This document shows positions 26,497 to 31,323 of a stretch of DNA of 64,000 bases, in pieces. Under the pieces are notes generated by a model, which saw nothing but the letters and a program-made list of their open reading frames with translations, was not told where the DNA came from and ran no database searches. Where the stretch lies: contig NZ_LT627736.1 in the NCBI RefSeq assembly GCF_900102005.1, forward strand, positions 434,001-498,000, in the 5' to 3' direction. The position numbers and the translations under genes were made by a program. The DNA is from Microbacterium sp. LKL04 (GTDB lineage Bacteria; Actinomycetota; Actinomycetes; Actinomycetales; Microbacteriaceae). The first letter of the stretch is position 1. Every line of letters begins with the position of its first letter.

Positions 26497-26724
26497 CTTT
26501 TCTTCTCCTTCACCGGCAGGTACGTGCCGGACGATCCGTTGTGAAGCGAGCGGGGGACACCCCGCACACCCGCCATCGGGTGCGTGTTCAGTATGCCACG
26601 CCTGCGCGGAGGGAGGGGATGCCTCCTCGTCAGCCTTTTTCCAGCGCGTCTGACTAACATCGGAGCGTGCGCCACACCCGGGCGCCGGGCCCTCCGGCCG
26701 CACCACAGATCTTCCCGAGGTTTC

Positions 26725-27690: not shown

Positions 27691-27766
27691 GCCGGCTTGG
27701 CGCAATTGGTAGCGCACCGTACTTGTAATACGGGGGTTGCAGGTTCAAGTCCTGTAGCCGGCACCA
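27691..27766 (+). tRNA. tRNA-Thr (anticodon TGT), CCA encoded
   Basis: The 76-base gene folds as a cloverleaf: acceptor stem GCCGGCT with AGCCGGC, D-arm with AATTGGTA, anticodon stem CCGTA/TACGG around loop CTTGTAA (anticodon TGT, reading ACA), and T-loop TTCAAGT. The 3' CCA is encoded at 27764-27766. No repeat of its 3' end that would mark an integrated element is apparent downstream. Confidence 0.97.
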
Positions 27767-27844: not shown

Positions 27845-29131
27845 TCAGCTCTCGTCTGCTTCGACCGCGTCGCGCGCGGTCACGCGGACCTCGGCGATGC
27901 GGCGACGGTCGAGGGCCGTGACCTCGATCGTCGCGCCGTCGACCTCGATCACGTCGCCGACGACCGCGAGACGGCCGAGCCGTTCCGTGACGAAGCCGGC
28001 GACCGTGTCGGACGCTCCACGGGGGAGCACGACGCCCGTCGCCTCCGAGAAGTCCTGCAGGTTCAGGCGACCGTCGATGATCTCGCGGTCCGCGTCCGGG
28101 GCGATGGCGGTGTCGTACTCGTCGAAGATCTCGCCCACGACTTCCTCGACGAGGTCCTCGAGGGTGACGATGCCGTCGGTCCCGCCGTATTCGTCGACGA
28201 CCACCGCGATCTGGTGGCCCTCGGCTCGCATCTTCGTCAGCGTCGGGAGGACGCGCGCCGTCGACGGGAAGTACGGGATCGGACGCACGATGCCCGACAA
28301 CGGGGCATCCCGGCCCTCGACGACCGCCTCGAACAGGTCACGGACGTGGACGAATCCGACGATGTCGTCGATGGAGGTGTCGGCGACGGGATACCGGGAG
28401 AACGGCAGTTCCCGTGCCTCGGCGACGGCCTCCCCGATCGTGGCGGTGTCATCCAGCGCGGTCACCTCGGGACGCGGGCGCATGACCTCGCTGAGCTGGC
28501 GGCCCCGCAGCGAGAGCACGTCCTCGAGGATCCGACGCTCGTCCTCTGGCAGGCCTTCGTGGCTCGCGACGATGTCGCGGACTTCTTCGTCGGTCATTTC
28601 CTCACCGGTCTTGTGAGGATCACCGCCGAGCAGGCGCACGAGCGCGTTCGTCGAGACCGACAGCAGCCAGATGACGGGTCGCATGACCTTCGCGAACCCG
28701 TCGAGGACAGGGGCGACGGCGTAGGCGAACTGCGCATTCCGCTGGATCGCCAGCCGCTTCGGCACGAGCTCTCCGAGCACGAGCGACAGGTAGGCGATCA
28801 GCAGGGTCAGGATCAGCGTCGCGAAGGTCAGCGCCAATCCGGGATCGACGCCCCACGACTCGATGAGCGGGGCGACAGACGGGGCGATCGACGTGGCGCC
28901 GTACGCGGCCGACGCGAACCCGGCCACGGTCACGCCGATCTGGACAGCCGACAGGAACGTGTTGGGGTTCCGTGCCAACCCCGCCACCTTGGCGCCCCGC
29001 TTGCCGCGCGCCGCGATCGCATTGATCTGACTCTCACGGAGCGTGACGAGAGCCATCTCGGTGGCGGCGAACACTCCGCCCACCAGGACGAACACCACGA
29101 CGAGGGCGATGTTCAGGGCGAGGTCGTTCAT
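27845..29131 (-). CDS. CorC/HlyC-type membrane protein (CNNM-CBS-CorC domains)
   Basis: The 428-residue protein has an N-terminal CNNM membrane domain (about 1-200), a CBS pair (about 210-335, with EVMRPRPEVTALD and VVVDEYGGTDGIVTLED) and a C-terminal CorC_HlyC domain. Such proteins are linked to magnesium or divalent-metal efflux and often carry the misleading name hemolysin. The ATG at 29131 opens a hydrophobic helix. It lies 62 bases downstream of terC, so both metal-related genes may share the riboswitch-controlled transcript. Confidence 0.92.
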   Translation of the reverse strand: MNDLALNIALVVVFVLVGGVFAATEMALVTLRESQINAIAARGKRGAKVAGLARNPNTFLSAVQIGVTVAGFASAAYGATSIAPSVAPLIESWGVDPGLALTFATLILTLLIAYLSLVLGELVPKRLAIQRNAQFAYAVAPVLDGFAKVMRPVIWLLSVSTNALVRLLGGDPHKTGEEMTDEEVRDIVASHEGLPEDERRILEDVLSLRGRQLSEVMRPRPEVTALDDTATIGEAVAEARELPFSRYPVADTSIDDIVGFVHVRDLFEAVVEGRDAPLSGIVRPIPYFPSTARVLPTLTKMRAEGHQIAVVVDEYGGTDGIVTLEDLVEEVVGEIFDEYDTAIAPDADREIIDGRLNLQDFSEATGVVLPRGASDTVAGFVTERLGRLAVVGDVIEVDGATIEVTALDRRRIAEVRVTARDAVEADES

Positions 29132-29193
29132 CGGATCTGCTCGATGGTGTCGGCCTCAACGGTGGGCGTCTGCGTATGGTCGCTGATCATCGG

Positions 29194-30225
29194 TCAGCTG
29201 TGCTCCTTCTTCTGCTCGGGAGTGGTCGTGGGCGTCCCGCTCGCGAGCGCCTTGGCGTCGTCGCGCCGCGTCTTGGCGAGGCTCGCGACCGTAGCCACGA
29301 CAATCGTGGCGGCGATGAACAGGAGCGAGAGCCAGATCGGGATCTCGGGAACCCACAGCAGAGGCTCGCCCCCGTTGATGAAGGGCAGCTCGTTGACGTG
29401 CAGGGCGTGGAAGAGGAGCTTGATGCCGATGAAGGCGAGGATGACCGCCAGGCCCTGAGCCAGGTACACGAGACGCTCGAGCAGGCCGCCGATGAGGAAG
29501 TAGAGCTGGCGGAGGCCCATGAGCGCGAAGGCGTTCGCGGTGAAGACGATGTACGCCTCGTTCGTGAGGCCGTAGATGGCCGGGATCGAGTCCACGGCGA
29601 AGATGAGGTCGACGAAGCCGATCGCGACGATGACGAGCAGCATCGGGGTGACGAAGCGCTTGCCGTCCTTCTTGACCGTGAGCTTGTCGCCGTTGTACTC
29701 GTCGCTGACGGGCAGGTGGCGGCGGACGAACTGCATGAACTTGCCGTTGGCCGGGTCGGATTCGCCGTGGGTGAAGGCCTGACGGTACGCGAGGAACAGC
29801 AGCAGCGCGCCGAAGATGTAGAAGATCCACGAGAAGTTCTCGATGAGAGCGGCGCCCACCGCGATGAATCCACCGCGCATGATCAGGGCGATCACGATGC
29901 CGATCATCAGCACCTTCTGCTGGTAGATCTTCGGAACGGCGAAGCCGGCCATGACGATCAGGAAGACGAAGAGGTTGTCGATCGACAGCGCCTTCTCGGT
30001 CAGGTAGCCGGCGAAGTACTCACCCGAGTACACCCATCCCCAGCCCGGGATGAAGCCGATGACGACGCCGAACAGCAGGGCGAGGCCGATGTAGAAGGCC
30101 GACCAGCGTGCCGATTCGGCGATGGACGGCTCGTGCGGCTTGCGCACGTGGGCGAAGAATTCGTAGACGAAGAAGGCGATCGTGACGGCGATCGTGATGC
30201 CCCAGACGAGCGGGGTGATTTCCAC
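29194..30225 (-). CDS. terC: TerC/Alx-family membrane protein, probable manganese exporter
   Basis: The 343-residue protein has about nine membrane helices with the TerC motifs EKALSIDNLFVF and FAVDSIPAI, whose acidic residues are typical of TerC/Alx metal exporters. The GTG at 30225 is chosen because GAGGAG lies six bases upstream; the ATG 48 bases further up (30273) lies inside the predicted riboswitch and would add 16 non-conserved residues. Control by a yybP-ykoY element fits a manganese export role, as known for Alx. The CorC/HlyC gene follows. Confidence 0.9.
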   Translation of the reverse strand: MEITPLVWGITIAVTIAFFVYEFFAHVRKPHEPSIAESARWSAFYIGLALLFGVVIGFIPGWGWVYSGEYFAGYLTEKALSIDNLFVFLIVMAGFAVPKIYQQKVLMIGIVIALIMRGGFIAVGAALIENFSWIFYIFGALLLFLAYRQAFTHGESDPANGKFMQFVRRHLPVSDEYNGDKLTVKKDGKRFVTPMLLVIVAIGFVDLIFAVDSIPAIYGLTNEAYIVFTANAFALMGLRQLYFLIGGLLERLVYLAQGLAVILAFIGIKLLFHALHVNELPFINGGEPLLWVPEIPIWLSLLFIAATIVVATVASLAKTRRDDAKALASGTPTTTPEQKKEHS

Positions 30226-30257
30226 AGGAGTCTCCTCGATGGCGTGAACAGATGACG

Positions 30258-30355
30258 CCAGAGTCTTCTCCATCTCGATTGCTCGAGACCGGTGGTCCGG
30301 GATGCGCCTTCACATCCGTAATGACGAACCGACCGTATCGGAGTACTCCCCCTGG
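30258..30355 (-). ncRNA. Probable yybP-ykoY manganese riboswitch upstream of terC
   Basis: Read on the minus strand, the leader contains the conserved strings GGGGAGTA (about 30343-30351) and TCGTCATTACGG, a hairpin TCTCGA-GCAA-TCGAGA with a GNRA loop, then GGAGAAGACTC. The ends pair as P1: CCAGGG (30350-30355) with CTCTGG (30258-30263). This order matches the yybP-ykoY aptamer, which binds Mn2+ and controls TerC/Alx-type exporters. TAAAAT at 30365-30370 is a plausible -10 box that would start transcription just before the aptamer. The expression platform is not clear. Confidence 0.85.
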
Positions 30356-30420
30356 GGACTTCCGATTTTATGGGATGCCGAAGGCCAAGACTGACAATTG
30401 CCTCGACGGGGTCGGCCGTG

Positions 30421-31323
30421 CTAGCGCCCTGCGGGCTCCTTGAGGTCGTCGCTCGCGTACGGCGCGGGCGCCGGTGCGTGCGCGTACGGGATGAACCAGC
30501 TCGCGAAGTCGAGGGGAGGGGTCGCCGCTGCGGCATCCCGTTTCGACGCCGCGTCCTGCTCGGCGAACAGCGAGTCGACGTCGAGATCCTGGAACAGCAC
30601 GGTGTCGAGGTGCTCCCGCCATCCTTCGGGCAGGTCGCCGCTCAGCCGGTCCGCGTTGCGCTCCGCCTCATCGAGGACGAGTTTGAGCGCCAGCTCGTGC
30701 GCGACGGTCGGCGGGTACACGGGCGACGCGCTCAGGCGTGATGTGACCTCGATCGTCGCGGCGAGGAACTTCTGCGCGAACCCTCGGTCGTAATGGGTCG
30801 CGTACTGCGGCGGCAACTGCGAGATGACGTGGGTATCCCGCCACGCGGAGTGGTCGCCCGAGGCATCCGCCAGGTGGAGGACGTCATCGAACAGGCAGTC
30901 CACGACCATGACGGAGGCGTTCCAGACGAGTCCCTTGATGATGGTGCGCTGCCGCAACTCGGATGCCGTCGCGTCACCGGTCGCCCCGCCGAAGAGCTCG
31001 TTCAGCGCCCAGTCGATGCCAGCCAGTCTCGCGCCCGCGCGCGCCACTCGGGCGGTGTCGGACGAGCCTGCGGGTACGCCGCCCGACGTCCCCTCCCACT
31101 CGGAGTCGACGACCGCCGTGCTGGCGGATTCGATCCGGACGAGGTGATCTGCTCCCGGGGAGACCGCGACGTCGAGGAGCGACAGCAGGGCGTCCTCGGC
31201 ATCCATCGTCGACGCGGACATGCGGGACGAACCGTCGATGCCGGTGAGGAGATCGTCGGGGTGCGCGCAGACCAGATCGAGATCGATGCGGACCGACGCG
31301 CGGTAGCGAGGATCTGAGGCCAT
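30421..31323 (-). CDS. Hypothetical protein, 300 residues
   Basis: I do not recognise this protein. It is soluble, with no signal peptide or membrane helix, mixed alpha/beta in the first third and mostly helical afterwards, ending in a Pro/Ala-rich tail (YAHAPAPAPYAS). Codon use is like its neighbours. The ATG at 31323 lies six bases after a TACGAT box with no ribosome site, a leaderless start. It lies between oligopeptidase B and the terC riboswitch and appears to be its own unit. Confidence 0.65.
   Translation of the reverse strand: MASDPRYRASVRIDLDLVCAHPDDLLTGIDGSSRMSASTMDAEDALLSLLDVAVSPGADHLVRIESASTAVVDSEWEGTSGGVPAGSSDTARVARAGARLAGIDWALNELFGGATGDATASELRQRTIIKGLVWNASVMVVDCLFDDVLHLADASGDHSAWRDTHVISQLPPQYATHYDRGFAQKFLAATIEVTSRLSASPVYPPTVAHELALKLVLDEAERNADRLSGDLPEGWREHLDTVLFQDLDVDSLFAEQDAASKRDAAAATPPLDFASWFIPYAHAPAPAPYASDDLKEPAGR

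Follow-up and report, generated by a model that had tools for sequence, protein, structure and literature searches.

Among the described members of the yybP-ykoY class, alx and mntP are Mn-responsive (PMC9603457), and the class has been crystallised from X. oryzae (PMC6754395). According to the accessible parts of these reports and of those cited below, the X. oryzae RNA has a four-way junction, with L1 docked on L3 and with P1.1 as the switch helix, and the residues named for its loop are A45, A46, A48, U49, A50, C51, and U52. The targets of the class in Vibrio (mneA, terC, and yrbG) are of the same kinds as those found here (PMC13274385), and more than 75% of the taxonomic groups covered by RegPrecise have the motif (PMC3766115). 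In Actinobacteria, yybP-ykoY leaders have been reported in Corynebacterium (PMC3890552) and Streptomyces. The leader of C. glutamicum cg2157 (terC) was described from RNA-seq as an actinobacterial yybP-ykoY leader before terC, with 49.1 bits under an older Rfam model, and its likeness to the present leader is drawn from that description (PMC3890552). The literature accessible on yybP-ykoY or manganese riboswitches in Actinobacteria, a coverage that leaves most subscription papers outside, contained no account of an alx-type form in Microbacteriaceae or of a gap in the database.

The window analyzed here is a stretch of 64,000 nucleotides from Microbacterium sp. LKL04 (NZ_LT627736.1, 434,001–498,000, forward strand; GCF_900102005.1), and all positions are numbered within it. 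A structured RNA of 100 nt was found on the minus strand (30357–30258), directly upstream of the terC gene, which belongs to the TerC/Alx family (29194–30225, minus strand, GTG start, 343 aa; TIGR03718, 354 bits with the longer frame). It is likely an alx-type Mn2+ riboswitch of the yybP-ykoY class that would act as a translational ON switch for terC. Computation supplied the structure with its homology and competing folds, the position of the start codon, and the association with particular genes, and we infer Mn2+ as the ligand, the ON direction, and translation as the step of control. The closest described system is E. coli alx, which shares the L1 string GGGGAGUA, the L3 letters UCAUUAC within CGUCAUUACG, the P1.1/P1/P3/P4 layout without a P2 insertion, and a downstream gene of the TerC family; its P4 and its linker to the start codon are longer. 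The Rfam consensus RF00080 has the L1 string, a P3 with a one-sided L3 of 7 nt, and P4 in common with the window element. However, it also contains a P2 hairpin and the L3 sequence AACAUAC, and it left the window unscored.

The names of the helices were taken from the crystal-structure papers, and P1, P3, and P4 were placed in the present analysis; all parts lie on the minus strand. The outer helix P1.1 is formed by CCAGGG (30350–30355) and the switching strand CTCTGG (30258–30263). It is followed inward by the two sides of L1, GGAGTA (30344–30349) and, according to the structure in model R1 (see below), AAGA (30264–30267), and by P1, formed by CTCC (30340–30343) and GGAG (30268–30271). P1.1, L1, and P1 lead into a junction with P3 and P4, and since P2 is absent, the junction is three-way. 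The fold and the model placed the 5′ side of P3 at 30325–30335 (lower part CGG, upper part GGTTCG), its 3′ side at 30290–30299, and the P3.1 hairpin at 30300–30317. The L3 loop TCATTAC occupies 30318–30324, and the P4 hairpin (30272–30289) carries a GCAA loop (30282–30279). The strings typical of the family were located at 30351–30344 (GGGGAGTA), 30327–30316 (TCGTCATTACGG), and 30271–30261 (GGAGAAGACTC), and both the conserved L1 GGGGAGUA and the GAC on the 3′ side were present. The earlier note had named such strings, a GNRA-capped hairpin, and the closing CCAGGG/CTCTGG pair, all of which were recovered on the minus strand. It had also given the element as 30223–30370, and this extent proved too long, as it includes the -10-like TAAAAT (30365–30370) and the linker.

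The structure of the element is under selection. Only one of 200 shuffles of 30223–30370 folded as well as the native sequence (z -2.79). For the covariation analysis, 39 sequences thinned at 80% identity were aligned by MAFFT without structural guidance, and RNAalifold predicted 19 pairs, 17 of which showed changes on both sides. These pairs fell into four helices: P1.1 (helix 1), P1 (helix 2), lower P3 (helix 3), and P4 (helix 4). Upper P3 and P3.1 were left out of the count, as the alignment is loose there. The paired cells amounted to 91.0% vs. 71.9% after shuffling and the double-change cells to 152 vs. 53.6, and none of 500 shuffles reached the observed values. Sliding the partners by one base lowered the paired share to 48–53%, and in lower P3 78.1% of the cells were paired. 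The invariant columns included GGGGAGUA, GUCA, ACG, and GAC, the last of which was found in all 39 sequences.

BLASTN with the leader detected matches in only 7 of 150 family genomes, including the genome of strain LKL04, and was abandoned as a survey tool for its low sensitivity. Homology model R1 was built from the alignment of these seven leaders. The window leader is thus among the training sequences of R1, and for this reason another model, R2, was trained on other bacterial families only. Alignment A6, from which alx had been left out, holds 20 sequences from outside the family, and R2 used 16 of them. R1 gave 103.7 bits at the terC leader, with the window in its training set. R2 gave 56.3 bits (E 5.3e-12) at the same site, and its next match in the window reached 9.9 bits. 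The E. coli alx leader was found by R1 at 42.1 bits (E 2.7e-9), with the segment CGUCAUUACG identical in both leaders, and by R2 at 39.5 bits. In five of eight loci tried (L138, L172, L011, L012, and L013), R2 landed on the places reported by RF00080; it missed L153 and L178, both reported by RF00080, and E. coli mntP was found by neither R1 nor R2. By these sequence models, the window is joined to the verified class both via alx and via the RF00080 sites. The assignment to yybP-ykoY made in the earlier note was supported by these models together with the covariation and the downstream genes. Very probably, the element is an Mn2+ riboswitch whose class is known and whose occurrence at this terC locus is new, with Mn2+ binding assigned by homology.

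The scan with RF00080 that had been suggested for the terC leader gave no match, either at the gathering threshold across the whole window or at E 10 over 30150–30480. Across the genome of strain LKL04, there was likewise none at the terC leader, and the only match, of 8.1 bits, was an unrelated one elsewhere. The site therefore stays below the 45-bit threshold of RF00080 and falls outside that model. This result was at first counted against membership of the class, a reading that was rejected because alx is also unmatched: in E. coli K-12, used as a positive control, the alx leader had no RF00080 match at E 0.1. E. coli mntP scored 41.6 bits, below the 45-bit threshold. This control was run with RF00080 of Rfam 15 on loci L009 and L010. 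Since both alx and mntP fail it, the cutoff does not define the class.

RF00080 also reported few of the actinobacterial loci with such leaders, namely 1 of 20 (E 0.012), and together with alx and mntP this marks it as an insensitive test here. It did report 4 of the 8 named loci from other phyla that have a loop of this type, with one above the threshold. In the same sample of 197 class genomes, with strict filters in both searches, RF00080 had matches in 7, none over the threshold, and R1 in 112. R1 further matched 32 of 39 genus genomes and 120 of 199 family genomes. The single site would be an ordinary Mn2+ riboswitch, and the gap lies around it: the alx-type leaders of this bacterial class are largely missed by the reference model, which is the useful result of the analysis.

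The genes behind the element are those expected of a manganese system. Among 85 genomes taken one per genus, four of which had supplied R1 training sequences, there were 60 R1 matches, and 57 of them were closely followed on their strand by a TerC gene, the aligned part of which lay 28–116 bases away. Conversely, 57 of 116 TerC genes carried the element, among them 20 of the 22 that most resemble the window's gene. The second TerC gene in the genome of strain LKL04 (G000:C1:1085288-1086247, minus strand; 54% identical) has no riboswitch.

A fetched set of 126 matches was chosen from the best family and class loci, second copies, and others, plus five sites first found by RF00080 (L011–L014 and L016); E. 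coli alx is also counted, and the set includes sites fetched twice (L063/L125 and L073/L130) and weak second matches (L054, L109, and L091). In this set, GGGGAGTA (30351–30344 in the window) was exact in 124 matches, and 102 matches preceded TerC. The other 24 preceded GDT1 (11), Na_Ca_ex (2), an unstudied gene (3), VIT1, PGPGW, and Ion_trans (1 each), and unassigned genes (5). By Pfam, GDT1 (divalent-cation antiporters), Na_Ca_ex, and VIT1 are divalent-cation carriers, so that the element precedes genes of Mn homeostasis beyond TerC as well. A pattern scan gave at least 118 matches, of which 62 were next to TerC/Alx genes, 5 next to the unstudied gene, and 51 next to genes without a match to the eight queries. 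The weak second matches (L054:1255-1365, minus strand; L091:1674-1793 and L109:1710-1854, plus strand) scored 23–28 bits and lie on the opposite strand, within ~150 bases of a strong one; these may be divergent riboswitch pairs.

The unstudied gene encodes a protein family of ~290 aa in Microbacterium and Leucobacter (L170), with members at L028:1661-2524, L049:583-1458, and L097:551-1423 and one in the genome of strain LKL04 (G000:C1:1565684-1566571). The family carries the NCBI name "cation-transporting ATPase," and the two members scanned had no Pfam domain. In a comparison by eye of the 39 genus genomes, a riboswitch was directly upstream of 16 of 17 close orthologs; the lone exception was the ortholog of strain LKL04, whose leader is without the motifs, and 10 weaker matches had no riboswitch upstream. 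The AlphaFold model of the protein was poor (pLDDT 64.7, pTM 0.37). This family is probably a new manganese-regulated gene.

The lack of P2, a helix that the crystallised members have, had been considered as the mark of a new class with a three-way junction. This candidate was dropped, because alx has no room for P2 either and because the space at this place, just 14–21 bases, leaves out a P2 by its length in 90 of the 118 pattern matches listed. Among the 80 titles listed for these matches, Actinomycetota, Bacillota, Chloroflexota, Proteobacteria, and Thermus were represented.

The L3 loop of the window has the form UCANNAC. Its relation to the crystallised type was assessed in a gapless count against the X. 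oryzae loop, for which the residues given in the accessible part of PMC6754395 were combined with the RF00080 consensus AACAUAC, C47 being supplied from the consensus. Among the 107 of 126 fetched matches with a GTCAN(T/C/A)AC loop, the place of A48, the Mn-contacting adenosine described as invariable, was variable (T39, G37, A24, and C7), which counts against the main reading, and the invariant A was one place to the 5′ side. E. coli alx has the same L3 loop as the window. Of these 107 loops, 100 stood before TerC, and none of the 12 sites with a GTC(A/G)ACA loop did; the latter preceded 10 GDT1 and 2 Na_Ca_ex genes. The pairing of loop type with target is a lead and not a test, because the set is a selection of related sequences. 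On this basis, we tentatively propose, with rather low confidence, that Actinobacteria have two target-matched forms of Mn2+ riboswitch, in which the alx-type UCANNAC would guard TerC and GUC(A/G)ACA would guard GDT1 and exporters of the Na/Ca type. The metal-contacting A of the alx-type form would sit one place earlier, and the regulon would include the "cation-transporting ATPase" family. If so, metal-loading proteins and exporters would respond at different metal or pH thresholds, which the loop would determine.

The same loop register, different from the crystallised one, and the same division of targets (100 of 107 vs. 12 of 12 in the fetched set) could be taken to mean that the leader, though a homologue of the class, answers mainly to a different signal, either alkaline pH or a divalent ion other than Mn2+, to which Mn2+ would be secondary. 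The response of alx to alkaline pH besides Mn2+, as described in the accessible text of PMC9603457, points the same way. However, according to that text, Mn2+ activates alx, whose L3 is identical to that of the window, and most of the non-TerC targets are carriers of the Mn/Ca type, so that a different main signal appears distinctly improbable and Mn2+ is preferred as the ligand.

The position of the aptamer also bears on the start of terC. The frame is open from an ATG at 30273–30271, which lies inside the aptamer, and a start there would make part of the structure coding. The GTG at 30225–30223, which had been proposed in the earlier note as the real start, sits 6 nt after the Shine-Dalgarno sequence GAGGAG (30232–30237), assigned by sequence and by comparison with relatives. 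A survey of 78 loci, one of which had no candidate start, left 77 relatives, and their start codons were GTG (34), ATG (31), TTG (8), and CTG (4). In 17 of the 77, a stop codon interrupts the frame somewhere between the final 32 bases of the aptamer and the start, and in only 17 of the 77 do the final 28 bases of the aptamer contain a start codon that is in frame and reachable. A Shine-Dalgarno match of 4 bases preceded the start in 73 of 77, a count favoured by choosing the candidate start with the best such match. In addition, the N-terminus read from 30225, MEITPLVW, falls in the alignment on the residues around Met1 of E. coli Alx. These results support the GTG and make a start at the ATG, open frame or not, highly improbable. 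More generally, an in-frame start codon within the aptamer can lead to a wrongly placed terC start.

Upstream of the aptamer, the TAAAAT at 30365–30370 was recognised by comparing TANNNT across TerC leaders: a TANNNT starting 9–18 bases before the aptamer was found in 83 of 101 TerC leaders, and a control stretch had one in 7 of 101. No -35/-10 pair was detected by a generic scan for promoters. Given this placement of TANNNT, the transcripts probably begin with the aptamer. Transcription would thus start a few bases upstream, and the aptamer would form at the 5′ end of the transcript. In the presence of Mn2+, L1 (GGAGUA) would dock on L3 (UCAUUAC) and the outer helix P1.1 would be stabilised, so that the ribosome-binding site is freed and TerC is made. 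When Mn2+ is absent, L1 and the 5′ strand of P1 would pair with GGAGACUCCU and the bases around the GTG, and translation of terC would be low. Mn2+ binding at L1/L3 and the pairing of the Shine-Dalgarno sequence would compete for the same bases.

The competing folds of 68 leaders are consistent with part of this scheme. In the isolated aptamer, the predicted pairing of P1.1 had a median of 0.74 and exceeded 0.5 in 44 of 68 leaders (0.88 in the window). In the full leader, it exceeded 0.5 in none of the 68 (about 2e-7 in the window). With shuffled downstream sequence, it exceeded 0.5 in 1 of 68, with a median of 0.02 (0.25 in the window). The loss of P1.1 is in good part unspecific, as the shuffled downstream sequence also lowers it; still, all 68 real leaders had less P1.1 than their shuffled controls (signed-rank statistic 0, p 4e-13). 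The pairing of the 3′ strand of P1.1 with downstream sequence had a median of 0.80 vs. 0.30 with shuffled linkers, and 57 of 68 leaders were above their own shuffle mean. This pairing was weak in the window (0.372 vs. 0.299 with shuffled linkers), where a linker hairpin TGGCGT/ACGCCA (30240–30260, minus strand), recognised by sequence and fold, adjoins this strand.

In the lowest-energy fold of the window leader, GGGAGU and CUCC of the aptamer paired with GGAGACUCCU, covering the Shine-Dalgarno sequence and the start, and the pairing of the Shine-Dalgarno sequence with the 5′ strand of the aptamer was 0.85. Their partner in this ligand-free fold, GGAGACTCCT, is located at 30226–30235 (minus strand). 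The ligand-free fold was 10 kcal/mol below the aptamer fold in an energy model that ignores Mn2+ and tertiary contacts. When P1.1 was imposed, the Shine-Dalgarno sequence was more open in 51 of 68 leaders and less open in 17, and in either state it was closed for the most part (medians 0.010 and 0.0003). Its pairing with the 5′ strand of the aptamer exceeded 0.5 in 24 of 68 leaders, compared with 13 of 68 when the flanks were shuffled. With just these 24 above 0.5, sequestration by L1/P1 was given up as a mechanism common to all leaders. The modelled folds suggest a translational ON switch in which the 5′ strand of the aptamer covers the ribosome-binding site, and this is the weaker step of the proposal.

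Depending on the bacterium, members of the class act through termination or through translation, according to the accessible part of PMC6754395, and the element might thus control transcription by attenuation or Rho-dependent termination instead of translation. However, a scan of the leader found no T-tailed terminator, and the ligand-free fold covers the Shine-Dalgarno sequence. The sole terminator-like site in 28900–30600 was inside terC (30194–30177), with 0.6 expected by chance. Control of transcription is therefore unlikely, and the competing folds over the Shine-Dalgarno sequence together with the lack of a T-tailed terminator in the leader favour the translational ON switch.

A CorC-like gene (27845–29131) follows terC on the same strand after a gap of 62 bases, and it had been suggested to belong to the same manganese-responsive unit. 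No terminator-like site was found between the two genes, which, with the shared strand and the short gap, speaks for a single Mn-responsive operon in this lineage. However, CorC followed terC within roughly 1.5 kb at only 3 of 102 TerC sites (the window, L019, and L048) and within up to 3.5 kb at none of 56 named TerC sites. The adjacency stands for close relatives only, a conserved manganese unit is unsupported, and a joint operon in this lineage is quite possible, with somewhat less than an even chance. A tRNA gene (27691–27763, plus strand) lies on the opposite strand past the 3′ end of the CorC-like gene. Further along, an msiK RNA (RF01747, 60.7 bits) was located at 26499–26556 (minus strand), just ahead of a gene for an ABC ATPase of the UgpC/MsiK type.
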